A stretch of DNA of 23,494 nt from a virus. The DNA lies in IMG/VR virus record IMGVR_UViG_3300017726_000087, positions 1-23,494 of that record, one strand, 5' to 3'. Below, in pieces: positions 8,268-18,996 of the stretch (the stretch's first letter is position 1; every line of letters begins with the position of its first letter). Position numbers and translations under genes: made by a program. The notes below the pieces were generated by a model. The model ran no database searches, was not told the origin of the DNA, and worked only from the letters and a program-made list of their open reading frames with translations.

Positions 8268-9157
8268 TAGCTACCGTCCATGTCTCCTAAACCAAAGTCC
8301 GCGCTAGTAAAAGCGTTTGTATTTACTATACCTTCATTAGTATTTAATGGAACGTTTAAAGCTTGATTATTAATATTACTAGGATCATTAAGTGTAAAAC
8401 TTGTTTCTGAAATTTTTTCATCTTCATCCTCGTCTAATGTTCCTGTTGGTGTTCCAAATAAACCTAGACGATTATAGTCACCCATGTCATCATAAAATTT
8501 ATTTCTAAATAATCCTTGACCTTTGTCATACGCACTACCAATAGCACCACCTACAAAAGGTATGCCTGTTACTAAACTCATCAATCCACCAAACAATCTT
8601 CCACCAAAACCTGGTTTAAGAGAACCATCAGCTAGTGTATCTGTATATCCATATTTATTTGCACCACCAAATAAACGACTTCTGCCTGTGTATTTTTGTA
8701 AAGGACCATAAGTTCTATTAGCAATGTTAGCTCTTTCATCATAACCCAGTCTACCAGCTTGTGCTCTTTCTGCCATTTGTAATGTAGCTCTTTGATTTGC
8801 TGTTCTTCTATCAAAATCTCTATCGCTCTCTCCTGGTCCTTGACCAGAAAAACCTCCACCTCCAGGACCTGAATCGTATCCACCGCCAGCATCTGTGTCT
8901 CCCCCTGATGCACCGCCACCACCTACATCACCAAAACTATCTAGTGACATAATTCCTGATGGACCCATGTTAGGACCTTTAGATAAAGATCCATGTATAT
9001 CTTTTTTAAGTATTAAATCTTTTTCTTCTTTTGTAATATATGCAAGTTCTGTTGCAGGAGCATCAGGACTAGATTGCCATTTTCTAGGTGCAACAACCTG
9101 TGGCTGTTTACCTAAATAGTTTTCTACTCCACCTTGTACTATTGGTTTCTTTGCCAT
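8267..9157 (-). CDS. Putative virion protein with conserved N-terminus and Gly-rich linker (296 aa)
   Basis: The N-terminus (MAKKPIVQGGVENYLGKQPQ, then VVAPRKWQSSPDAPATEL and ITKEEKDLIL) is a block I associate with structural genes of marine podoviruses. Residues 70-108 are a glycine/aspartate linker (VGGGGASGGDTDAGGG). A charged helix follows (ESDRDFDRRTANQRATLQMA). Residues near 185-210 form a hydrophobic segment (FGGLMSLVTGIPFVGGAIGS) that could contact membrane or a tail channel. The C-terminus is acidic (LDEDEDEKISE). The ribosome binding site AGGAGGT (9166-9172) is embedded in the last codons of the nozzle gene, and the ATG overlaps its stop as TAATG at 9157. The position after the nozzle and before the ejection proteins suggests a tail or internal protein. 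No catalytic motif is seen. Confidence 0.6.
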   Translation of the reverse strand: MAKKPIVQGGVENYLGKQPQVVAPRKWQSSPDAPATELAYITKEEKDLILKKDIHGSLSKGPNMGPSGIMSLDSFGDVGGGGASGGDTDAGGGYDSGPGGGGFSGQGPGESDRDFDRRTANQRATLQMAERAQAGRLGYDERANIANRTYGPLQKYTGRSRLFGGANKYGYTDTLADGSLKPGFGGRLFGGLMSLVTGIPFVGGAIGSAYDKGQGLFRNKFYDDMGDYNRLGLFGTPTGTLDEDEDEKISETSFTLNDPSNINNQALNVPLNTNEGIVNTNAFTSADFGLGDMDGS

Positions 9158-11334
9158 TATCTTCTACCTCCTGGGTGTATGTCTAATCTAAATGTACCCA
9201 ACTTCCAATCTTCACCGGCTGCAGTATTAGCAACCTCAAGAGCAATCTGTCTTGCTCTTACTCTAACATCTTTTTTAGTTGTTGTAGAATCACAAGAAAA
9301 AGTATTCGTAACTTGTGCACTATTTGGATAAACTCTTGTTTTAAATTTAATTGCTGTGTTACCTGTTTGACTAATAAAATCTGGTATAAATCTGCTTATT
9401 CTCATTATAAATTCTCCATCACCTCTCAAGTCTGGTGAACCAAGTGCTTGACCGCTTGCAGCTCTTCTTTGTGTAATATCAAAATCACCAGAAGTAATAC
9501 TAGCAATAACAGCGGTAATAACACCACCAGCATTTACTTGATCGGTTCCTGTTTCCTGTTGATAGTATATAGTACATCCGTCTGTATTACCAGTAACATC
9601 GTAAGAGCTATTGCTGCTAGGATCATAGTAGGTAGCATGAGGTCGTTCGAATACAGCAGAGTCTTGCCATGCTGCTCTAGGTAAAGTGCCTGTTGTCCAT
9701 ATAGGTCTTTTAGGTGTTGAGTCTAGATAATTGTATGTAACTACCCTGTTAATTTGATTAGAGTTTGTTGTGCAATAAAACCAACTTATTTCTCCAAATA
9801 GATTATTTAGTCCTGCATTAATAAGATCTCTAGAAACTAAATTTATATCATCATAAACATCGTCTTCAACTAAACAAGGCATTGATTTTAATTGACCATC
9901 ATATGTAAAGAATCCATTTTCTGACATCCAATAGGCAGAACCATCTACCTCTATACAAGCATTTTTTCCCACTAGTCCGCAGTTAGTTCCTACCTGTTCA
10001 AAAGAGAAAGTAAACGGCTGACCCACAAACTTCATAAGAAATAGTGCAGTATCAGTCCATACATAAATAGCATCCCTACCTTTGATAGCTCCCATAATTC
10101 TTGAACCATCAGCAAGTCTTTGAGTACCTGCGGTATTGTCAGCTCTGACTGTGTATGAATCTGTTTGATCAATACTTTCTTGAGAAGAGAATCTAATAAA
10201 CATATCATCTTGAGTGCTAGCACTTCCTACAGTTGTTTCTGTACCAAAAAATACTAAGTGTCTGTCGGGTGTAGATACTAATACATGTCTTGATGCAGTC
10301 GGTGCATTTGGTAAAAGAGTGGCTCTTGTACTAGTAGACCCGGCTGCTGCTGCATCCCATTCAAAACAAGCACCATTATATATAAGAGCAATTAATTTTG
10401 TACCATAGTTATCTAATATCCATAGTCCTGGGTCAATCGTAAAGTCAGAAGAAGATGCTTCACCCCAACCTACAAAGTCAGATATATTGGTAACCGTAGC
10501 ACCTCCACTGTGAGTCGCTTTGGTTGTTCCATTAACACCTCGAGCTCCTCCGCTTAGAGTATTAGTTGTGGTATTGTTAGCTGTAAAACTTATGTCTTCT
10601 GTTCCAATTCTTATTTCTCCAGTTGATGGAAAAGCTGCAGTGCTGGCTAATACAATATCAGTCGTAGTCAGATCTGTTATGGCAGTTGCAAGAGTGCTCG
10701 TTGCTGGTCCTAATGCAGTTCCTGCCCAAAGACCTGTACCCCAACCAAAGCCACCTAATTGTTGTGAGGGTCCTACGTCATAATAACATAAGACAGAAGC
10801 TGACCCTGCAGTTGATAACGGAGTTCCAGTTTCTTGAGTAGCCATAGTAATCGTAAATGTTGTAGATGTAGGCACAGAAGTAACCATAAACTTTTCATCT
10901 TCAAAAGTTGCATTGGTAAAAGTAGAACCAGATAAACCTGTTACACTATCAAATAAAACAATACCATCTTCTAATAATCCATGAGCCCCGGTGCATGTTA
11001 CCGTAACTGTGGTTGATGAAGATGTGCTGGTAAAATTAGCTCCTGTTAAAGTAGTTTTAATAGGGTGTATGTCATAGTATGTACCACCAGAATATACGTA
11101 TAAAATTTTATTTGTTCCAATAGCAGCGTATTTAACACCTGAGTTATCGTCCCAATGATGAATAGCTCTAGCGGCACCAGTTAATTTACTGACTCCTAAT
11201 TGTTCCCAACCACCTATTTTTTCAGGTGAGCCATACCTAAAACGTACGTTATCACCATCAAACCATTGCCCTTCGGCTCCGGTTTCCGTTACTTGTTTAT
11301 TAAATCCTGGGGCAAAGCCTAATTTTTGTAGCAT
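9157..11334 (-). CDS. Tail nozzle / hub-like beta-propeller structural protein (725 aa)
   Basis: The protein opens with MLQKLGFAPGFNKQVTETGA, EGQWFDGDNVRFRYGSPEKI and GGWEQL. This is the N-terminal pattern of large podovirus tail proteins that bind under the adaptor ring: a 'path' loop, then 'DGDNVRFR.G.PEKIGGWE'. The body has regularly spaced WxxDxxxxKYAAIG/KLIALIYNG/HLVFFG/IYVWTD blades, as expected for a beta-propeller, similar in layout to P22 gp10-type and T7 gp12-type nozzle proteins. Residues 101-170 and 221-283 are two inserted beta modules that also occur in the 265-aa protein at 22584-23381. The C-terminus (KDVRVRARQIALEVANTAAG, then WKLGTFRLDIHPGGRR) fits the closing strand. An extended -10 promoter element lies upstream. 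The fold call is by pattern only. Confidence 0.6.
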   Translation of the reverse strand: MLQKLGFAPGFNKQVTETGAEGQWFDGDNVRFRYGSPEKIGGWEQLGVSKLTGAARAIHHWDDNSGVKYAAIGTNKILYVYSGGTYYDIHPIKTTLTGANFTSTSSSTTVTVTCTGAHGLLEDGIVLFDSVTGLSGSTFTNATFEDEKFMVTSVPTSTTFTITMATQETGTPLSTAGSASVLCYYDVGPSQQLGGFGWGTGLWAGTALGPATSTLATAITDLTTTDIVLASTAAFPSTGEIRIGTEDISFTANNTTTNTLSGGARGVNGTTKATHSGGATVTNISDFVGWGEASSSDFTIDPGLWILDNYGTKLIALIYNGACFEWDAAAAGSTSTRATLLPNAPTASRHVLVSTPDRHLVFFGTETTVGSASTQDDMFIRFSSQESIDQTDSYTVRADNTAGTQRLADGSRIMGAIKGRDAIYVWTDTALFLMKFVGQPFTFSFEQVGTNCGLVGKNACIEVDGSAYWMSENGFFTYDGQLKSMPCLVEDDVYDDINLVSRDLINAGLNNLFGEISWFYCTTNSNQINRVVTYNYLDSTPKRPIWTTGTLPRAAWQDSAVFERPHATYYDPSSNSSYDVTGNTDGCTIYYQQETGTDQVNAGGVITAVIASITSGDFDITQRRAASGQALGSPDLRGDGEFIMRISRFIPDFISQTGNTAIKFKTRVYPNSAQVTNTFSCDSTTTKKDVRVRARQIALEVANTAAGEDWKLGTFRLDIHPGGRR

Positions 11335-11357
11335 AAAAAAACCTGTTTTAACGCTAG

Positions 11358-11385
11358 ATTATATCAGATTTATTGTGGATTTCTA
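11358..11385 (-). promoter_or_regulatory. Candidate extended -10 promoter for the nozzle gene and downstream genes
   Basis: On the minus strand the 48-base gap after the last oxygenase gene holds TGATATAAT (11366-11358), a perfect extended -10 (TG-n-TATAAT). Sixteen bases upstream is TAGAAA (11385-11380), a 4/6 match to TTGACA. The expected start near 11351 gives a leader of about 17 bases with AGG before the ATG at 11334. It is one of the two longest intergenic gaps in the window, and the element sits exactly at the boundary between the oxygenase array and the structural genes. Chance matches are common in AT-rich DNA, so this is a candidate only. Confidence 0.5.
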
Positions 11386-11976
11386 GAGGTTTAATACCAG
11401 ACCAATTCTATTATCATCTATTTTGTGTGTAGGAACTTCGTGATACAACCAAGATGGCCATAATAAAAGACTTCCTACTACAGGTTTATATGAAACAGTA
11501 CCAAAAGTATTTATATTTTGATAATCCAATACAGGCCAATTAGTATATTCTCTTACATGTATAGGATCGTTAAAAATAATTTGAGCAGAACCTTCTGGTA
11601 CTTTTAAATATAGAATGCCTGATAGCTGATATTTATGTATATGTCTTTCTTGATAAGACCCTTTATTCAATTCTGTGGTAAAAAAATAAGGATCAAATTT
11701 TTTAGCTATTTGACTATAATCAAAACCTAAATCTGTTAAATAAGCTTGTGCCACTTGTTTTAAATATTTTAAAAACTTTTGATATTCAGGTTGTTTAGCT
11801 AAATTATATTTAGTGTCGTATGTAGTTCTACCTTTATAAAATCTTTCTTTATTAATCTTTTCATAGTCTAAATATTTAAGGGACGGCTTTAATAATTTTT
11901 TAGCCCATTCTGGATTGTAGTGTGATAAGATAGGAACAGAGAACCAGCTTTCTATTTTATAATTAGTTATTTTCAT
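11383..11976 (-). CDS. 2OG-Fe(II) oxygenase-like protein 9 of 9 (HxH type, 197 aa)
   Basis: Last gene of the array. The metal motif reads RHIHKYQLSGILYL with H112 and H114. The distal histidine is H179 in LLWPSWLYHEVPTH and the putative 2OG-binding arginine is R190 (11 residues on, in DNRIGLVLNL). After the first motif comes FNDPIHVREY, the 'F-x-DP-R' block of the putative oxygenase family PF13759, and YKPVVGSLLLWPSW forms the strand before the distal histidine. The N-terminus (WFSVPILSHYNPEW) aligns with that of protein 5 (YFQSPICSIEIPEW), so these two look like paralogues. The ATG overlaps the end of gene 8 by 14 bases. The stop TAG overlaps the -35 region of the next candidate promoter. 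A fold-level call is secure; substrate and activity are unknown. Confidence 0.8.
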   Translation of the reverse strand: MKITNYKIESWFSVPILSHYNPEWAKKLLKPSLKYLDYEKINKERFYKGRTTYDTKYNLAKQPEYQKFLKYLKQVAQAYLTDLGFDYSQIAKKFDPYFFTTELNKGSYQERHIHKYQLSGILYLKVPEGSAQIIFNDPIHVREYTNWPVLDYQNINTFGTVSYKPVVGSLLLWPSWLYHEVPTHKIDDNRIGLVLNL

Positions 11977-12496
11977 TAAATATTTCCCAATGTTTTTCTA
12001 TTGCAATTATTTCCATATTTATCGAAAGTCTAAGCTGTTTTGATTTAACATTAACAGGGTTATGCCATAACCAGCATGGAAAAATATATAACTCATTTGT
12101 TTTAGGTTTAATTTTTAATATATCTTTTCTTCGATTTCTAAATTCTATTTCACCACCTTCCATATCTTTTGGTATATCTAAATAATAAACTGAATTAATA
12201 GTTGAAGATTTAATGTGATTATGCCAATTAACAGATGGTTTAAAGTCTTTATTAGAAGCTACAGCCCAACAAAAATCTCTATTCAAATCTTTATTAACTT
12301 TAAACTTTAAATGCTTTTGAGCAGTATTTACAAATGTATTATAAAGTTTTGTAGTAAATTTACTTTTTTCAAGAGCATAATTATTATCCCACTGTGCTCT
12401 TTTAATTTGATCAATAACTTTATTTTTAACTCTTGTATGCTCTCCTTTAGAAAAGTCGTATAAATTATCAATCCTTATAATAGGAAAGTCTTTCAT
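11963..12496 (-). CDS. 2OG-Fe(II) oxygenase-like protein 8 of 9 (HxH type, 177 aa)
   Basis: The core begins at NWHNHIKSSTINSVYYLDIP, with H92 and H94 as proximal ligands. The strand GGEIEFRN follows, then LYIFPCWLWHNPVNV with the distal H145, and R156/S158 in LRLSINMEI. This is the complete H-x-H, H, R-x-S order expected for a double-stranded beta-helix oxygenase of the PF13759 kind, with His where the usual Asp would be. The first 75 residues are variable, charged and helical. The start forms TAATG with the stop of gene 7 at 12496. The Trp-His and VYYL context is closest to proteins 1 and 3 of the array. A C-terminal extension of about 15 residues (AIEKHWEIFNENN) is not seen in those two. 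Confidence 0.8.
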   Translation of the reverse strand: MKDFPIIRIDNLYDFSKGEHTRVKNKVIDQIKRAQWDNNYALEKSKFTTKLYNTFVNTAQKHLKFKVNKDLNRDFCWAVASNKDFKPSVNWHNHIKSSTINSVYYLDIPKDMEGGEIEFRNRRKDILKIKPKTNELYIFPCWLWHNPVNVKSKQLRLSINMEIIAIEKHWEIFNENN

Positions 12497-13176
12497 TATC
12501 TCGGAATCTTTTTTTCTACTCTTTTAAATCTACTTGGTAACCCTAAATGTGGTCGTCTATCAAAAGCGTTTTCTTCTGCACCTTTAGTTGCTTTGTTATT
12601 GTAATGTAAAAATACTTGTGCACAATAATTTCCTGTATAAGGCTCTCTCCAATGTTCTAGTAAATCACCTCTATAAACTAACATGTCACCAGGTTTTAAA
12701 TCTACCTTAACTCCTTTAGATTTAGACGCATCATAATCTCTTGTTGTTGGATTTATTCCACCTTCTTTTTCATTTGGGTTTATATAAATTGGCCAAGGTT
12801 TATCTCCGCCTAAATTTAATGTAGTTGATATTTCACAACTAAATCTATCTTTGTGTCTATGTAATACATCTTTCACTTTATAAACTCTAGTGTAAGAATA
12901 ATTTTCAAATAATTTTAAACCTGTAGCTTTTTCCATTTTTGGTTTTAATGTAGTTAATAATGTTTCCATCATCACATCTCCATAATGAGAATAAGTACCT
13001 GGAACTTGTTTATCTCTCCAAGTGCCCCAGTCATGATTAAATTCTGATATATGTTTAGTTGTAATAAATGCTTGAGTTACTTTTCTTTTAAGCAAGATAT
13101 AGTTTTTTAAAAGCTCAGCGATATCCTTACTTACGGCTCCTTTTATTACAGTAAATTTATCTTTTTTCCAATTCAT
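12496..13176 (-). CDS. 2OG-Fe(II) oxygenase-like protein 7 of 9 (HxD type, no canonical Arg, 226 aa)
   Basis: The proximal motif is HRHKDRFSCEISTTLNLGG, giving H108-x-D110 with a canonical carboxylate. KPGDMLVYRGDLLEHWREPY gives the distal H175. At 10-12 residues past this histidine, where the other proteins have arginine, the sequence is YCAQVFLHYN (C185, A186, Q187), so the usual 2OG-binding Arg is missing. R177, immediately after the distal His, could substitute. I recall the EHWREP...CAQVFLHYN pattern from other marine-phage proteins, so it is probably a subfamily feature and not decay. The N-terminal 95 residues are helical, and the C-terminus is basic (SRFKRVEKKIPR). The ATG lies one base after gene 6's TAA, and the stop overlaps gene 8's ATG (TAATG). 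Confidence 0.75.
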   Translation of the reverse strand: MNWKKDKFTVIKGAVSKDIAELLKNYILLKRKVTQAFITTKHISEFNHDWGTWRDKQVPGTYSHYGDVMMETLLTTLKPKMEKATGLKLFENYSYTRVYKVKDVLHRHKDRFSCEISTTLNLGGDKPWPIYINPNEKEGGINPTTRDYDASKSKGVKVDLKPGDMLVYRGDLLEHWREPYTGNYCAQVFLHYNNKATKGAEENAFDRRPHLGLPSRFKRVEKKIPR

Positions 13177-13177
13177 A

Positions 13178-13672
13178 TTATTGATAGTTAAAATTAATTA
13201 CTATTTTATATTTTTGATCTGTACAAGTTGTAGCTTGATGGGTTTCATTTCCTTCAAAAAATACTATCCTGTTTTCTTTTGCTTGTACCTTTCTATCTTT
13301 AAACAATGTTAAACCATTATTAGTATTAATATATAATATAGCTGCTTTACATTTATACTCTTGATCTGTGTGTTTATCAAACTTATAAACTTTATCTGTA
13401 TTAGAAACTAAATTTGCTTTTATTCTTATAAAATATTTAGGTTTTAATATTTCTATAATAGGTTCTAATAAACTATAAGCATTAGAATTTATTTTATTAT
13501 CTTCAAAAAAAACATGAGTAAGTTGGTAATCACTTTTATGTTTTGTATATTCTTTAGGGTCTTTGGATGTTTTATTATTATTTAAATACCAAGGAAAAAC
13601 ATCAGAAGTTAAAGCTTTTTTTATTTTATTAAAGTCTTCTTTTTTTAAAAAATTATTTTTTACTTTTGACAT
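13178..13672 (-). CDS. 2OG-Fe(II) oxygenase-like protein 6 of 9 (HxD type, Arg replaced by Lys, 164 aa)
   Basis: A short protein whose core reads FDKHTDQEYKCKAAILYINT (H101-x-D103). GLTLFKD and then RIVFFEGNETHQATT follow with the distal H145. The final strand is TDQKYKIVINFNY. The residue that is Arg in related proteins (by recollection, xNRIVxNFNY) is K156 here, which might weaken 2OG binding or change the co-substrate. It is the smallest HxD member and resembles the compact phage oxygenase-like proteins often found in marine T4-like phages. The ATG at 13672 lies within gene 5 (20-base overlap) and is preceded by GAGGAC. The start MSKVKNNFLKKEDFNK leaves only about 75 residues before the core. 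Confidence 0.75.
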   Translation of the reverse strand: MSKVKNNFLKKEDFNKIKKALTSDVFPWYLNNNKTSKDPKEYTKHKSDYQLTHVFFEDNKINSNAYSLLEPIIEILKPKYFIRIKANLVSNTDKVYKFDKHTDQEYKCKAAILYINTNNGLTLFKDRKVQAKENRIVFFEGNETHQATTCTDQKYKIVINFNYQ

Positions 13673-14351
13673 CTTGTCCTCTCAAATGATTGGTTAATAA
13701 TTTTCTAACAGCTTGTAAATTAAAATGCACAAATCTAAAATCATCTACTCCAGCATCTACTGTAAAACCATGTTCTAAATATGATGGAAAAAAAATCATA
13801 GTCCCTGGTTTAGGTTTATATTGAATCAGTGGTGAAGCCATTGAAATGTTAGCCGGATCTTTCAGAGGCAAGTCTGACATGACTTTAGCTAATCTTGGAT
13901 CTTTAAAATAAGGAACAGAGGTTCTGTCACTACATTTTAAAAAATAAAAACCTGAAATATGGTTATCATAATGTATGTGACCTTCATGGTGTCCTCCACC
14001 TTTTTTAGAAAATTCTTGTACCCATAATTCAGTCCACATTAATTCGTACTGAGACATATCATATCCAAAAAAATCCATAACATTCCAACTTGTTGATCCA
14101 ACATATTCTTGAAATTCTTTTAATTCAGGATCGTTAATCATGCTTCCTGAATGGTGTGATAAAGTTATATCCCCAACTTTTTTCTTCCATCTTTTTTCCC
14201 TATCTTTAATCATAGGTTCATTTCTTTTCTTGGCTTCTTTAATATATTTATTACATACTTTATCAACATGGCCTACCCACTCAGGTATTTCAATAGAACA
14301 GATTGGAGATTGAAAATAAATTGATGTAGTTAATTTATCTGTTTTAGGCAT
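13653..14351 (-). CDS. 2OG-Fe(II) oxygenase-like protein 5 of 9 (HxH type, 232 aa)
   Basis: The start used here is the ATG at 14351 (MPKTDKLTTSIYFQ), two bases after gene 4's TAA. A longer reading from 14372 would need a TTG start and a 20-base overlap, and seems unnecessary. The core is HHEGHIHYDNHISGFYFL with H125 and H127. YFKDPRLAK then forms the DPR block of PF13759. KPGTMIFFPSYLEHGF carries the distal H194, and R206 lies in DDFRFVHFNL. A 20-residue insert between DPR and the distal strand (DLPLKDPANISMASPLIQYK) makes it one of the longer members. N-terminal YFQSPICSIEIPEW matches protein 9. The C-terminal tail is basic (RGQDVKSKK). Confidence 0.78.
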   Translation of the reverse strand: MPKTDKLTTSIYFQSPICSIEIPEWVGHVDKVCNKYIKEAKKRNEPMIKDREKRWKKKVGDITLSHHSGSMINDPELKEFQEYVGSTSWNVMDFFGYDMSQYELMWTELWVQEFSKKGGGHHEGHIHYDNHISGFYFLKCSDRTSVPYFKDPRLAKVMSDLPLKDPANISMASPLIQYKPKPGTMIFFPSYLEHGFTVDAGVDDFRFVHFNLQAVRKLLTNHLRGQDVKSKK

Positions 14352-14352
14352 A

Positions 14353-15021
14353 TTATTTAAATGGATACCCAAGTGCCCATAGCACTAATGAATATCTTTT
14401 TCCTGTAGTAACTGGTTTAACTCTATGCCATAGATGAGAAGGAAATACAATAATACTTCCTCTTGCACCAAAATGTCTTTTAGTATTTAAAACTATTTTT
14501 GGATCTGTTTCTGTTCTTGGTTGTATTTCTAACTCCCCACCTTTGTAATCTTTAGGATTAGATAATTGAACAATAGCTGAAATTTTTCTTTGTTTACCAT
14601 GGAAATTAGGATCTGCTGGATTATCATAAGGTGTTGGAAAAGGGTCACAATGCCAATCATAAAACTGGTTACGTTTATATTTAGTAAATTGGCAAGTTTC
14701 AAAATAACTAATTTCAAAATTCCAACCAGCGCTTTGATTTGCTTGATGTATATAAGGAATTATTTGATCATAGATCCATCTATCATTTACCCAAGCAACA
14801 TTAGAATCTCTTTGTTTTTTTAAATCTTTTATTTCTTTTCTTGTTAAGTGTTTTTGAATTTCTGATTCATGTTTTACACCAATTCTTTCTTTAACACTCC
14901 TTGCTGTTTTACCTATGGTTCCTATTTTTTCTCTTTGAGAATTACCATGTTCTATTAATTCATCACAAAACTTGTCTCCAAGTATACCTGTAAAATACCA
15001 ATAAGCGTTTTTTAAAATCAT
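14353..15021 (-). CDS. 2OG-Fe(II) oxygenase, PKHD/prolyl-hydroxylase-like, 4 of 9 (HxD type, 222 aa)
   Basis: This is the most canonical enzyme of the array. QFYDWHCDPFPTP gives H124-x-D126. RKISAIVQLSNPKDYKGGEL is the classic strand of PKHD-type/P4H-like hydroxylases (PF13640). SIIVFPSHLWHRVKPV gives the distal H199, and GKRYSLVLWALGYPF gives R209-x-S211. All four expected 2OG/iron residues are present, in the usual order and spacing. Length and the YFTGILGDKFCDELI N-terminus are normal for this family. Members hydroxylate protein or small-molecule substrates in other organisms; which applies here cannot be read from sequence. The ATG overlaps the TGA of gene 3 in a four-base ATGA junction. 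If only one protein of the array is an active hydroxylase, this is the best candidate. Confidence 0.88.
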   Translation of the reverse strand: MILKNAYWYFTGILGDKFCDELIEHGNSQREKIGTIGKTARSVKERIGVKHESEIQKHLTRKEIKDLKKQRDSNVAWVNDRWIYDQIIPYIHQANQSAGWNFEISYFETCQFTKYKRNQFYDWHCDPFPTPYDNPADPNFHGKQRKISAIVQLSNPKDYKGGELEIQPRTETDPKIVLNTKRHFGARGSIIVFPSHLWHRVKPVTTGKRYSLVLWALGYPFK

Positions 15022-15470
15022 ATTAAATCTATTGCAATTGAATAACGTTTAATTTTTTTAGGTGAATAAGGTTGAGAATGTATTTCATTACCATCAAAAA
15101 CTAATAAAGAATTTTGTGGACATTTTCGTGAAGTAATCTTGTCCCAACTATATCTTTCATCTCTAAACATAGTTCCTAAACTATCAGAATTTTGTAAAAA
15201 GTAAACAGCCGATAATTTACAGGTAGGGTGATTGTGCCAATTAATCTCATCCCCTTCACAATAATTACCCCAAGAATTTTCAATTTGATATTTTTTAAAA
15301 TATTTAGACATAATTAAATTGTAAAAATGTTTAGTTTCGTCAAACGTATGTAGATCCATAAGAGTCTGTAAACCAGGACATCTTGGCCTTAAATCTCTAA
15401 CCTGTGTTTTAACAAACGCCAGTAACTTTTTTCTTTCTTTTTCTGTAAGAATATTTTTATATAACTTCAT
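15018..15470 (-). CDS. 2OG-Fe(II) oxygenase-like protein 3 of 9 (HxH type, 150 aa)
   Basis: The shortest member. The core reads NWHNHPTCKLSAVYFLQNSD with H79 and H81. LGTMFRD follows, then SLLVFDGNEIHSQPYSP with the distal H131, and R142/S144 in IKRYSIAIDLI. The Trp before the first His and the LSAVYFL strand place it near protein 1 (WHTHPRTNLSAVYYL). The N-terminal 60 residues are helical (LTEKERKKLLAFVKTQV). It begins at TAATG with gene 2's stop (15470) and ends in the ATGA overlap with gene 4. At 150 residues it is close to the minimum for this fold, so it probably has no separate substrate-recognition domain. Confidence 0.78.
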   Translation of the reverse strand: MKLYKNILTEKERKKLLAFVKTQVRDLRPRCPGLQTLMDLHTFDETKHFYNLIMSKYFKKYQIENSWGNYCEGDEINWHNHPTCKLSAVYFLQNSDSLGTMFRDERYSWDKITSRKCPQNSLLVFDGNEIHSQPYSPKKIKRYSIAIDLI

Positions 15471-16072
15471 TATGTCTGTAAAAGTACATTACCTGCAATA
15501 GACATTCTGGTTTTGTTGCTGTTATAAAACGGGTATACAATATGCTGTAATTGTGCAGGAAATAATACTATACGCCCCTCATCTTTTTTAGTTAAAGTTA
15601 ATCTATGTGTTAAATTTTTTCCTATAATAGAATTGTAATTATATTCAAATATTGAAGGAACTGGTATCTGCATCCAAATATTATAAGACAACACACCGCC
15701 ATGTTCGTGTAGTGGTAAATATTCATTTTTTTTCTGAAAGTTTACCCATGGTGTTCTAAAAGCCATTGGTACATCTTTATCTAAATATCTTATACCATCT
15801 AAATAACCTGGAAAAGTTTCTCTATATTTTTGAATCATTTTTTTAATAACTTCAATTATCTTTAATGTATTTTCTTCTGTTATAAAATAATGTTCTGATA
15901 CGCCTTTCTCAGTTAAATAAGATATCATTTTTTTCTTATAATCTATGTCTAAAGCAATTCCACGTGGTTTTGGTTTCTTTATAGATAAACATTCTTTTAA
16001 TAAAGAATTATATAATTCTTTTGGTAATCTACTTTCTATAACTCCAAAATTAGGTAGTGGTAAAATTTCCAT
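15470..16072 (-). CDS. 2OG-Fe(II) oxygenase-like protein 2 of 9 (HxH type, 200 aa)
   Basis: The central sequence FRTPWVNFQKKNEYLPLHEH, followed by GGVLSYNIWMQIP, gives H122 and H124 with E123 between them. RIVLFPAQLQHIVYPF gives the distal H167, and R179-x-S181 lies in TRMSIAGNVLL. The 'W-N-QK---Y-PLH-H-G--S---W--IP' block defines a recognisable marine-phage subfamily distinct from the other array members. IFEYNYNSIIGKNLTH sits where other members carry the F-x-DP block. E123 or H124 could supply the second proximal ligand; alignment favours H124. The start forms TAATG with gene 1's stop at 16072. The N-terminus (LPNFGVIESRLPKELYN) resembles a short substrate-lid helix. Confidence 0.78.
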   Translation of the reverse strand: MEILPLPNFGVIESRLPKELYNSLLKECLSIKKPKPRGIALDIDYKKKMISYLTEKGVSEHYFITEENTLKIIEVIKKMIQKYRETFPGYLDGIRYLDKDVPMAFRTPWVNFQKKNEYLPLHEHGGVLSYNIWMQIPVPSIFEYNYNSIIGKNLTHRLTLTKKDEGRIVLFPAQLQHIVYPFYNSNKTRMSIAGNVLLQT

Positions 16073-16557
16073 TAATTATAAAAATCACAGTTAAATGATA
16101 TAACTGTCTTCCTTTCATTGCTTTTGTTTACAGGAGCTCTATGTAACATATATGATGGAAAAATCAATATGTCTCCTTCTTTAGCTTTAATTTTATTATT
16201 TTTAAATTCAGTAATTAATTCTTTTTTAGGTAATTCTAAATAATATACAGCAGATAAATTAGTTCTAGGGTGGGTATGCCAAGCGTGTTTATCATTTTTT
16301 TTATATTGCATAAACCATGCATTATGAATTGTCCAATTTTGACATTTAAATTTTTTAGCTGTTTGTGACATTAAAGAATTTATTTCTTTATAAAAGAAAT
16401 CTAAATAATCTCTTTGAAAATCAGAAGGTAAGTTCCAATCGGATTTAGTTGCCGTTGTGCCTTTATGTGTTTGATAAAAAATATTTGGCATTTTATCAAT
16501 TAAAGATAAAAGTTTATTTTTAATTTTATTATGCTTTCTAAATTGTATTACCCACAT
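16072..16557 (-). CDS. 2OG-Fe(II) oxygenase-like protein 1 of 9 (HxH type, 161 aa)
   Basis: First gene of the array. WHTHPRTNLSAVYYLELP gives H94 and H96. AKEGDILIFPSYMLHRAPVN gives the distal H139, and RKTVISFNCDF contains R149 and S154. The order matches PF13759-type proteins, with the second proximal ligand His in place of Asp. The ATG at 16557 has no purine-rich ribosome binding site: the ten bases before it are AACCCATACC. A strong-looking promoter lies so close that transcription would start about 3-5 bases before the ATG, so this gene may be expressed from a nearly leaderless message. All eight following genes are coupled to it by overlaps or gaps of at most two bases, so its expression probably sets that of the array. 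Confidence 0.8.
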   Translation of the reverse strand: MWVIQFRKHNKIKNKLLSLIDKMPNIFYQTHKGTTATKSDWNLPSDFQRDYLDFFYKEINSLMSQTAKKFKCQNWTIHNAWFMQYKKNDKHAWHTHPRTNLSAVYYLELPKKELITEFKNNKIKAKEGDILIFPSYMLHRAPVNKSNERKTVISFNCDFYN

Positions 16558-16567
16558 GGTATGGGTT

Positions 16568-16596
16568 TTTATATACTTTAATTAATTAATAGTCAA
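16568..16596 (-). promoter_or_regulatory. Candidate sigma70-type promoter driving the oxygenase array
   Basis: On the minus strand TTGACT (16596-16591, 5/6 match to the -35) and TATAAA (16573-16568, 5/6 match to the -10) are separated by exactly 17 bases. The -35 lies in the last codons of the glycine-rich gene, and the -10 lies in the 24-base gap before the first oxygenase gene. The predicted start is near 16562-16560, that is 3-5 bases before the ATG. The absence of a ribosome binding site agrees with this. Position, spacing and both hexamers agree, which makes it the best promoter candidate in the window, though it is untested. Confidence 0.6.
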
Positions 16597-18498
16597 TGTT
16601 CCCGAAACAACAAATTTAGCAACGGTATGTCCACCAACACAAGATATAGTATTACATCCTGGTGAAGCTGACATAGGGTGTCCTGCTGGTGATCTAACAA
16701 CAACGATACCTGAACCACCTTTTGATCCATAGTGTGATTTTCCACATGGAGCTAAATAAGTAGGAGCACCAAAGTTAGTAGGTCCTCCAGTACCTCCACC
16801 GCCGCCACCGCCGGTATTTGCAACACCTGGTTCTGATAAAGAAGCAGCGTTTCTTGAAGCAGCAGTTCCACCGCCACCTGATCCACCGGTTCCACCGGCT
16901 AGTCCGCCAACTCCTCGGTCAGTTCCGGATCCTCCACCTCCAGCATAAGCTGAACATGCAACACCTGTAATTAAGTTCGCAGCTCCCGCTCCTCCAGGTA
17001 CTCCTGGGTCTGAACCTGATCCTGGACTTCCAGCTGCAGTAGCACCTCCGCCACCACCAGAAGCTTTGTTATCAGGGTTTCCTCCAGATCCACCATCATT
17101 TCCTTCAGGTGGAGAGAATCCTCCAATGTTTCCAGAACCTCCTGGTCTTTTACCACCAATAAGAGAAGCATAACCTCCAGAACCTGAACCTCCAGGTCCA
17201 CCTCTATAACCATTGTTAGCATTCCATGGGCTTCCGCAAGATGCGTTTAAAGGTACAGCACCTCCAGATGATTGAATAAGAGAACCGAAACTTGATGGGC
17301 TACCATAACCTGGACCATCTAAAGATGGGGGTGATGTGTCAATAGGATAAGCAGTTCCGGCAGCACTTGCTCCGCCTGCTCCAATTGTAATTGTATAAGC
17401 TGAAGAAGAACATGCAACGACTGCACATCCTTGTAAAGGTGAAGGTCCGTAACCAGAAGCTCTATAACCTCCAGCTCCACCTCCGGCAAATAATTGACCT
17501 GCTCCGCCTCCAGCGACTACTAAATAATTTAATGTAACTGATTCAATAACTGTTCCATCAGGCCATGCGCCATCAGATTGTGCAGTTCCAGCTTGGACCA
17601 TTGGCCAAACTCCTCTTGCATTGTTTAATTCTTTTGTAATGACTACACCTTTTCCGCCGGCACCGCCGCCACTTGGCGCAGGATCATACTCGGCGCCTCC
17701 GCCGCCACCACCAGTGTTTTCAACTCCAGCTCCGCCTGATCCAGGTCCTTTTCCAGCACCACCGCCACCTGGGCCTGCAGCACCACCTGTTCCACCGCCA
17801 ACAGCAGGTACGTTTGCACCGCCACCGCCGCCACCAGCAATTACTCCACATACTCCAACACCAGTACCAAATATTGCTGAAATATTTGTTCCAGCTCCAC
17901 CGGCTCCACCGTCTCCGCCACCTCCGGATTGAGTACCATTTGCTCCGACAGCACTAGATCCTCCACCGCCACCAGCAGCTTGAAAATAAGTTGAAGGTGT
18001 ATTACCACCACTAAAACCTTGAGCGGGACTTGTTGGAGGTGTGTTACCAGCACCTCCGCTGTCTGCGTTAGTTCCTTTTCCTGGATTAGGTCCGCAGGCT
18101 CCTCCGCCTCCGCCTGATCCACCGGCTCCACCGACTCCGCATCTAGCTCCGCCATCTCCACCGCCATCAGCAGTGTATGTTACACCACCGATTACAATAC
18201 TTGAATCAACTCCAACAGCTCCAGCAGCTCCGCCGCCACCAACTACTGCTGGTACGTTTCCACATATCGATAAATTTTGAATTGTTCTTAATCCACCGGC
18301 TCCACCGCCGCCACTTTCACCGCCACCGCCACCGGCGACAACAGCAATGTCAACTAATTTTGTTCCAGATCCAATAGTAACGGTTCCAGTTGCAGCTGTG
18401 CTTGTAATTTTATTTTTACCAAAAGAAGCACAATTGGCTACACCAATCATTCCTCCTTCAGCTGTACTAATTTTTGTGAGTTTGTTTATTCCAGCCAT
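16582..18498 (-). CDS. Glycine-rich tail fibre / adhesin-like protein (638 aa)
   Basis: After a 45-residue leader (MAGINKLTKISTAEGGMIGV) the protein consists of two long glycine-rich modules. Module 1 spans about residues 47-290, opening IAVVAGGGGGESGGGGAGGL and closing GGKGVVITKE. Module 2 spans about 320-638, opening YLVVAGGGAGQLFAGGGAGG and closing SGIVVVRSPAG and TVAKFVVSGTLTIN. This is the layout of phage glycine-rich domains that end fibres; polyglycine runs can pack as polyglycine-II helices in fibre-tip adhesins such as that of Salmonella phage S16. Its place at the end of the fibre genes supports receptor contact, though that is inferred. Several Cys residues and PG/GP steps lie in the loops. 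A GGGGGA ribosome binding site precedes the start at 18498. The GC-rich glycine codons contrast sharply with the AT-rich array that follows. Confidence 0.7.
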   Translation of the reverse strand: MAGINKLTKISTAEGGMIGVANCASFGKNKITSTAATGTVTIGSGTKLVDIAVVAGGGGGESGGGGAGGLRTIQNLSICGNVPAVVGGGGAAGAVGVDSSIVIGGVTYTADGGGDGGARCGVGGAGGSGGGGGACGPNPGKGTNADSGGAGNTPPTSPAQGFSGGNTPSTYFQAAGGGGGSSAVGANGTQSGGGGDGGAGGAGTNISAIFGTGVGVCGVIAGGGGGGANVPAVGGGTGGAAGPGGGGAGKGPGSGGAGVENTGGGGGGAEYDPAPSGGGAGGKGVVITKELNNARGVWPMVQAGTAQSDGAWPDGTVIESVTLNYLVVAGGGAGQLFAGGGAGGYRASGYGPSPLQGCAVVACSSSAYTITIGAGGASAAGTAYPIDTSPPSLDGPGYGSPSSFGSLIQSSGGAVPLNASCGSPWNANNGYRGGPGGSGSGGYASLIGGKRPGGSGNIGGFSPPEGNDGGSGGNPDNKASGGGGGATAAGSPGSGSDPGVPGGAGAANLITGVACSAYAGGGGSGTDRGVGGLAGGTGGSGGGGTAASRNAASLSEPGVANTGGGGGGGTGGPTNFGAPTYLAPCGKSHYGSKGGSGIVVVRSPAGHPMSASPGCNTISCVGGHTVAKFVVSGTLTIN

Positions 18499-18504
18499 GG
18501 GTTA

Positions 18505-18996
18505 TTATCCCCCTGTAGCATCCCAAGCTGATGTGCTAGGATTCCATTCATATTGATCTGCACTTCTGTAACCTATCCACTGTTGATTTGCTTCACTCCA
18601 TTCTATTCGATAATAAAATTGTTCTCCATCAATTTCTTCAAATTCGACAGAAGGACGAGCAATAGGTGGTTCCCAGTTCCAATCAGTTGTGTTTAATGTC
18701 CAAGACGCATAAGGTTGTTGTGCATAAAATACATCATTTTCAGAATCATATACTGCACCTCGTCCTGCATATTTACCTCTAAAATTATTATTGTAAGATG
18801 TTTGTTTCCATTCACCACCATTAAAAAGTTTTTTACAATAAAACTCTCCATCTGGGTGCATGTCATTCTGACCTAAAGTAGTTAAACCTGCAGGAACATC
18901 ATTTCCTACAACAACAACTCTTTTAACAATGTACTTGTTATCAGTTGTGAAACCTGTTGGATCTTGTTTTAATTCTAATTCAGCAAAATGTGCCAT
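18505..18996 (-). CDS. Conserved marine-phage virion-type protein, MAHFAELE family (163 aa)
   Basis: The sequence MAHFAELELKQDPTGFTTDN, then VKRVVVVGNDVPAG, EFYCKKLFNGGEWKQTSYNN, NFRGKYAGRGAVYD and QQPYASWTLN matches a pattern I know from many cyanophages and other marine myo- and podoviruses. There MAHFAKLD...VVVVNNDV...GG.WKQTSYNNNFR...PQPY.SWTL recurs next to tail or fibre genes. It is rich in Trp and Tyr, a compact beta fold, with no catalytic motif. The function is not established to my knowledge; a fibre-associated or virion role is likely. The ribosome binding site is AGGAGG overlapping the upstream TAG. It lies between a small beta protein and the glycine-rich adhesin, with six bases to the latter. 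Confidence 0.7.
   Translation of the reverse strand: MAHFAELELKQDPTGFTTDNKYIVKRVVVVGNDVPAGLTTLGQNDMHPDGEFYCKKLFNGGEWKQTSYNNNFRGKYAGRGAVYDSENDVFYAQQPYASWTLNTTDWNWEPPIARPSVEFEEIDGEQFYYRIEWSEANQQWIGYRSADQYEWNPSTSAWDATGG

Follow-up and report, generated by a model that had tools for sequence, protein, structure and literature searches.

Why would a phage keep nine different oxygenase genes in an unbroken row among its structural genes? The question is raised by the virus record IMGVR_UViG_3300017726_000087, a 23.5-kb stretch (23494 bases in full, hereafter the window, to which all positions refer) in which nine intact open reading frames (ORFs; 150-239 amino acids) of the 2-oxoglutarate (2OG)- and Fe(II)-dependent oxygenase type lie contiguously and without interruption on the minus strand (11383-16557). 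The genes, named g1 to g9 by rising coordinate and transcribed from g9 to g1, span 5175 of the 23494 bases, in agreement with the 22% given in the initial annotation, and their junctions (seven overlaps of 14, 1, 20, 20, 4, 1 and 1 bp, and one 1-bp gap) make translational coupling of the nine plausible. The array is preceded by a gene for a 163-amino-acid protein (18505..18996, minus strand; phrog_7759) and, directly upstream, by a glycine-rich fibre-like gene (16582..18498, minus strand; phrog_2295, with a weak match of 21.8 bits to PF21722, Gly_rich_2), and it is followed by a nozzle-like structural gene (9157..11334, minus strand; phrog_3287, E 1e-92). We found that the array, the fibre gene and the 163-amino-acid gene are exchanged as one unit between phage backbones, and we explore here what such a coupling may mean for the function of the oxygenases.

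Joint exchange of the array and a glycine-rich fibre gene

The comparison covered 192 loci with a nozzle gene (relatives are cited by locus number, e.g., L199), searched with profiles built from the nine genes. Outside the module the window and L199 are mostly 92-97% identical (nozzle 95%, upstream tail genes 92-97%), whereas within it the identity falls to 70% for the 163-amino-acid protein, 72% for the fibre (over the matching half) and 23-80% for the array. The opposite pattern was recorded for L190, in which the outside genes are 42-88% identical to those of the window (nozzle 80%) and the array reaches 87-96% (fibre 84% over the matching part), and for L112, in which a nozzle of only 40% identity accompanies an array of 66-84%. 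Since near-identical backbones carry different modules and diverged backbones carry nearly the same one, the three components are exchanged as a unit, with the 163-amino-acid gene (whose identity pattern tracks the module and not the backbone) at its upstream end and the backbone-tracking nozzle as the downstream flank of the slot.

The same coupling emerged across the whole set of loci. By Mantel-type tests, which model phylogeny incompletely, the similarity of the arrays was correlated with that of the fibres and not with that of the nozzles (partial Mantel r 0.33, p 0.001, n=63), and the array-fibre correlation persisted when the set was restricted to complete nozzles (coefficient 0.35, p 0.002, n=31) and among the loci sampled by nozzle (p 0.024, n=15). 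The enzyme genes are thus passed on together with the fibre gene whatever the backbone, a property by which a tail-fibre modification module would be recognised. Simple adjacency does not fully explain the coupling, as the nozzle gene is equally close to the array and shows none. In 66 of 73 dereplicated slots a glycine-rich ORF precedes the array at a distance of no more than three genes.

The content of the slot varies widely. The 93 dereplicated slots that include one or more ORFs upstream of the array contain between 1 and 11 oxygenases (mean 4.6); as the loci were gathered by nozzle, g3, g6 and g9 queries, prevalence figures are biased outside the nozzle-sampled set. The initial annotation had considered a run of nine unusual, which holds insofar as most relatives have runs of 3-5, but unbroken runs of nine recur (L081, L164, L190, L191 and others, besides the window) and the longest, in L112, comprises ten. 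Among loci sampled by nozzle only, a g3-type gene was present in 26 of 31 slots and a g6-type gene in 25 of 31, commonly in the order g6, g5-type, g3, with the remaining oxygenases being accessory (subtype labels were taken from clustering at 40% identity, since the profiles merged on iteration). Arrays inverted relative to the nozzle were found in L043, L064 and HTVC027P.

Some relatives hold further enzyme genes in the slot, namely a tryptophan halogenase (PF04820, E 3e-103), a carbamoyltransferase, a sulfotransferase, and methyltransferase-like, DUF6445 and cupin/JmjC-like genes. Such tailoring enzymes lie between the glycine-rich fibre and the nozzle: the halogenase in seven loci (L148, L162, L173, L184, L042, L118, L245), the sulfotransferase in three (L148, L170, L109) and the carbamoyltransferase in one (L164). 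In another group of relatives (L194:9532-10077, and also L195, L196, L198, L199, L200 and L201) a 182-amino-acid protein (X182, SIDIDW...) is encoded in the middle of the array; its VNVDHHHD motif suggests a metal site, and it had no match in Pfam, NCBIfam or PHROG, no significant match in the PDB, and no counterpart in any of the phage records.

Family, fold and active sites of the nine proteins

By profile matches and predicted structures, all nine are diverged proteins of the 2OG-Fe(II) oxygenase type, as the initial annotation had proposed for nine adjacent genes in a phage structural operon. Eight of them match Pfam profiles: g1, g2, g5, g8 and g9 (PF13759) and g6 and g2 (PF13640) above the cut-off, g7 (PF13759, 23.6 bits) and g4 (PF13640, 24.5 bits) just under it; g3 has no Pfam match. 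PHROG matches were obtained for the complete array (E 3e-13 or better), with g1, g2, g5, g7, g8 and g9 falling into phrog_81, g6 into phrog_61, g4 into phrog_274 and g3 into phrog_2954.

Structures were predicted for the two doubtful members, g3 and g4, by AlphaFold (AF2) on alignments of relatives. Both models were confident (g3: predicted local distance difference test, pLDDT, 93.9 and predicted template modelling score, pTM, 0.90; g4: pLDDT 91.6, pTM 0.87), and a double-stranded beta-helix, which had been set as the test of the assignment, is predicted for these two weakest members; g1 and g6 would share it by homology to solved structures and the other five by profile match. In Foldseek searches of the PDB the best match of g3 was a P. 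putida P4H (prolyl 4-hydroxylase; E 1.4e-8, prob 1.00), and its matches also include small-molecule proline hydroxylases and natural-product oxygenases. For g4 the best was a Dictyostelium PHD (prolyl hydroxylase; E 2e-7, prob 1.00), with PHDs (including PHD2), AspH (the human protein at a template modelling score of 0.67), P4H and PolD among the matches listed.

The names attached to two of the PHROGs look wrong for these proteins, judging from profiles and models. Phrog_2954 is called 'ferrochelatase', and no ferrochelatase was found in the Pfam matches of 34 homologues of g3, in the PDB profile matches or among the 50 fold matches listed, which are 2OG-type oxygenases. Similarly, phrog_274 is called 'DNA endonuclease V', and the PDB profile matches of g4 are to Tet-like dioxygenases only (weak, E 0.24-0.74), with no pyrimidine-dimer endonuclease V among the fold matches listed. 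In agreement with this reading of the names, g3 aligns with the first half and g6 with the second half of a further 'ferrochelatase' profile, phrog_3531; on this basis the cyanophage protein of that name (about 362 amino acids; L261:7974-9062) looks like two oxygenase domains, one g3-like and one g6-like, fused into a single chain.

The active sites appear intact throughout. The proximal HxH or HxD motif and the distal histidine are present in all nine genes, with an arginine 10 to 12 residues after the latter in seven, both as initially described; the spacings between the first and distal histidines also stood for eight genes (45, 52, 75, 69, 44, 67, 53, 67), that of g8 being 55 residues instead of 45. 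Both first-motif residues and the distal histidine do not vary within any orthologue group (187 sequences for g3, 170 for g6, 127 for g5 and 7-42 for the others), occurring as HxD...H in g3, g4 and g6 and as HxH...H in g1, g2, g5, g7, g8 and g9. A basic residue for the 2OG carboxylate follows the distal histidine in eight of the nine (an invariant arginine in seven groups, arginine or lysine at +11 in g4); g3 has neither, and its other invariant residues are R97, R111, R177 and Q187. The HxH form is also present in the solved PF13759 proteins 3bvc and 2rg4, and may represent a candidate three-histidine iron site in enzymes of this type. That the motif does not occur by chance is indicated by its presence in 973 of 1001 profile-positive ORFs, compared with 105 of 672 similarly sized ORFs outside that set.

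In order of transcription, g9 (16072..16557; all coordinates on the minus strand) matches PF13759 (E 1.5e-15) and phrog_81 (E 1e-30) and carries HTH...H139 with arginine at +10 (H94, H96, H139 and R149 invariant in 21 orthologues). It is followed by g8 (15470..16072; PF13759, E 8.5e-9), with HEH...H177 invariant in 7 orthologues and dN/dS (the ratio of nonsynonymous to synonymous substitution rates) of 0.13-0.29, and by g7 (15018..15470; phrog_81, E 2e-14), with HNH...H131 invariant in 18. The P4H/PKHD-like core member g6 (14353..15021; PF13640, E 1e-16) has HCD...H199 and arginine at +10, the motif and R209 being invariant in 170 orthologues, and its PDB relatives are the PKHD hydroxylases 3dkq and PiuC. 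Another core member, g5 (13653..14372; PF13759, E 1e-14), carries HIH...H201, invariant in 127 orthologues. The putative oxygenase g4 (13178..13672) has HTD...H145 and lysine at +11, replaced by arginine in most orthologues (H101, D103, H145 and N160 invariant in 42), and the core member g3 (12496..13176), likewise assigned by predicted fold, has HKD...H175, invariant in 187. The array ends with g2 (11963..12496; PF13759/PF13640, Pfam E 2e-9), with HNH...H145 and its arginine invariant in 22 orthologues, and g1 (11383..11976; PF13759, E 2e-17), with HIH...H179 and the solved relatives 3bvc (E 3e-13) and 2rg4 (E 3e-12).

All nine genes are maintained under purifying selection, as seen from the invariant active-site residues together with dN/dS values of approximately 0.05-0.30 against close relatives, which rule out decaying or passenger genes. 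Recent tandem duplication was rejected as well, in line with the earlier statement that these are not recent copies: identity within the array does not exceed about 27% over full length (best pair g1/g5, 25-27%), while orthologues in other phages share 60-100%. As putative members of the superfamily, g1-g9 would be expected to catalyse 2OG- and O2-dependent reactions.

A proposed fibre-tailoring module and its rivals

Starting from what the comparisons established (oxygenase fold or family, intact active sites, purifying selection, a fixed slot with variable content, and co-exchange with the fibre), we incline, by little more than the balance of the evidence, to regard the array as the enzyme part of a polymorphic module that acts on fibre side chains. 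The 163-amino-acid gene, the glycine-rich fibre gene and the oxygenase run would form a single recombining unit across phage backbones, and the oxygenases would be distinct Fe(II)/2OG hydroxylases, each differing in specificity from the others. Late in infection they might jointly hydroxylate side chains of the adjacent glycine-rich fibre, or of another late tail protein, and in some relatives the halogenase, sulfotransferase, carbamoyltransferase or methyltransferase of the slot could modify the fibre further, a new hydroxyl group being a conceivable acceptor for sulfotransferases and carbamoyltransferases. Variation in enzyme content would then alter the chemistry of the adhesin on an unchanged scaffold, and so alter or hide the host-recognition surface. 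With no more than this strength we infer catalytic activity of the enzymes, the fibre as their substrate and adsorption as the property that changes. The presence of protein hydroxylases (P4H, PHD2, AspH) among the closest structural matches of g3 and g4, and of other group-adding enzymes in the same slot, speaks for such a role. Of the proposals first made for the locus, an array that diversifies a single target agrees most closely with the data, given that phages differ in array content and that this content tracks the adjacent fibre gene.

Several observations weigh on the other side. Five loci (L018, L051, L062, L075 and L084, the last being HTVC027P) have 3-5 oxygenases without a glycine-rich fibre alongside, and with two further exceptions they indicate that such a neighbour is not strictly needed; the T4-like P-SSM2 has related genes among its replication genes; adjacency alone could produce the co-inheritance of array and fibre, though the equally adjacent nozzle shows none; and neither fibre length nor its proline, asparagine and lysine content was correlated with array size. 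No signal was obtained for fibre glycine content against array size, or for halogenase presence against fibre tryptophan content (n=6). Fibre tyrosine content rises with oxygenase number over 63 loci (rho 0.52; weaker when grouped into 27 nozzle clusters, p 0.0075); as a hint of the target residue this is a possible lead only, for it fails correction for 20 residues.

None of the rival explanations accounts for the fibre coupling as simply as a tailoring module does. The oxygenases could instead modify host proteins during infection (EF-Tu, ribosomal proteins, regulators) from a late operon slot that merely tolerates insertions, and the closest structural matches of g3 do include the P. putida P4H crystallised with EF-Tu, while relatives in T4-like phages sit outside fibre regions; yet a late structural position is odd for such functions and the tracking of the fibre in place of the backbone is left unexplained, so that we hold this explanation to be unlikely. 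Rather more improbable is a pathway like those of natural-product clusters, in which the oxygenases, halogenase, sulfotransferase and carbamoyltransferase would build or decorate a small molecule or a short modified peptide. The enzyme mix of the slot resembles such a cluster and the Foldseek matches of g3 reach into small-molecule and natural-product oxygenases, but genes for a scaffold-making enzyme or a precursor peptide were not recognised, pure-oxygenase arrays are the commonest form, and g6 and g3 are retained as core genes amid otherwise variable content.

Slightly further down we place auxiliary roles in metabolism or nitrogen/2OG signalling, or in nucleic-acid modification and repair, as put forward for cyanophage 2OG oxygenases (2OG and NtcA, DNA repair; PMC3037559). 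The faint resemblance of g4 to Tet-like dioxygenases and the rise of host iron-uptake genes during HTVC027P infection (PMC12753301) would agree with them, but consuming 2OG needs no nine diverged and separately conserved enzymes, the array tracks the fibre and not replication genes, and the solved relatives of g6 are PKHD-type hydroxylases. Least probable of all, in our assessment, is an insertion hot-spot that collects unrelated moron genes, with the fibre linkage reflecting mere recombination between neighbours: although the array is AT-rich (G+C 27-29% over positions 11001-16500, compared with 33-50% on both sides) and its content and orientation vary, purifying selection and invariant active sites mark all nine genes, one superfamily fills the slot near-exclusively, and the coupling to the fibre has no parallel in the equally adjacent nozzle.

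Returning to the tailoring module, a broader form of it can be put forward only tentatively, and we would sooner doubt than assert it: the commonest pelagiphage group might carry an exchangeable cassette for post-translational modification, in which up to 11 substrate-specific hydroxylases, joined by halogenase, sulfotransferase or carbamoyltransferase, put a variable chemical pattern on a glycine-rich adhesin. If true, receptor binding would be diversified by chemistry and not by sequence. The array-fibre link makes the question of why marine phages have so many oxygenases directly testable by mass spectrometry of cultured-phage virions.

Known systems and genomic setting

Marine phages have long been known to carry multiple 2OG oxygenases (PMC3037559), and the first suggestion, that the system is a candidate for an undescribed one, is not supported in that form. 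Eight non-orthologous 2OG genes were reported in HTVC023P-type pelagiphages, clustering with 'ferrochelatase' genes (PMC9599517), and 2OG oxygenase and 'ferrochelatase' auxiliary genes (phrog_2954 and phrog_61 being named) are enriched in seasonal marine viruses (PMC11561400). The HTVC023P-type genes resemble those of the window in gene families, phage lineage and the clustering of several non-orthologous copies per genome, but they were described as nearby 'although not adjacent', and their partner was read as a heme enzyme (PMC9599517), whereas the window has nine contiguous genes, a 'ferrochelatase' with a predicted oxygenase fold and an array that is exchanged with the fibre gene. The misnaming of g3 matters because heme-enzyme readings of the partner (PMC9599517, PMC11561400) use the same name, one that structure prediction contradicts. 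In the open-access papers searched we came across neither unbroken arrays of nine or more nor any account of the misnaming or of co-exchange with a fibre gene, and no paper on oxygenases modifying phage fibres was found.

A deposited run of five adjacent genes annotated as 2OG oxygenase or ferrochelatase (HTVC008M gp068-gp072) belongs to the same families as the array of the window and includes g3-like and g9-like relatives; in contrast, HTVC008M is a T4-like myophage, its run is shorter and opposite in orientation to the neck and baseplate genes, and a tryptophan halogenase and an oxygenase are placed separately near the terminase genes. At this second site with the same enzyme pairing (L260, 1296-3255) the halogenase (PrnA) adjoins the 2OG oxygenase. 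Outside phages, P4Hs and HIF-PHDs (4j25, 6t8m, PHD2), AspH and PKHD-type enzymes (3dkq, PiuC) are like g3 and g4 in predicted fold and like g6 in sequence, with HxD...H conserved, but the fold matches have identities of only 9-17% and six of the nine array members have HxH instead of HxD. The PF13759 proteins 3bvc and 2rg4 align with g1 over 150 residues, including the HIH motif; they are single uncharacterised bacterial proteins, whereas the family members of the window form an array.

Promoter and terminator signals in the window did not exceed the level of shuffled sequence and were uninformative, and Rfam and tRNA searches gave zero matches. The window is part of the genome of a phage allied to the HTVC023P-type pelagiphages; its nozzle-like protein is 45-46% identical to the counterparts in the Pelagibacter phages HTVC023P and HTVC027P. 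This likeness, together with relatives of the slot in Pelagibacteraceae single cells, makes SAR11 the likely host. The two single-cell contigs in question (L264, 62 kb; L266, 60 kb) carry a nozzle gene and a four-oxygenase slot and, being close in length to complete HTVC023P-type phage genomes, probably represent phages captured inside SAR11 cells.

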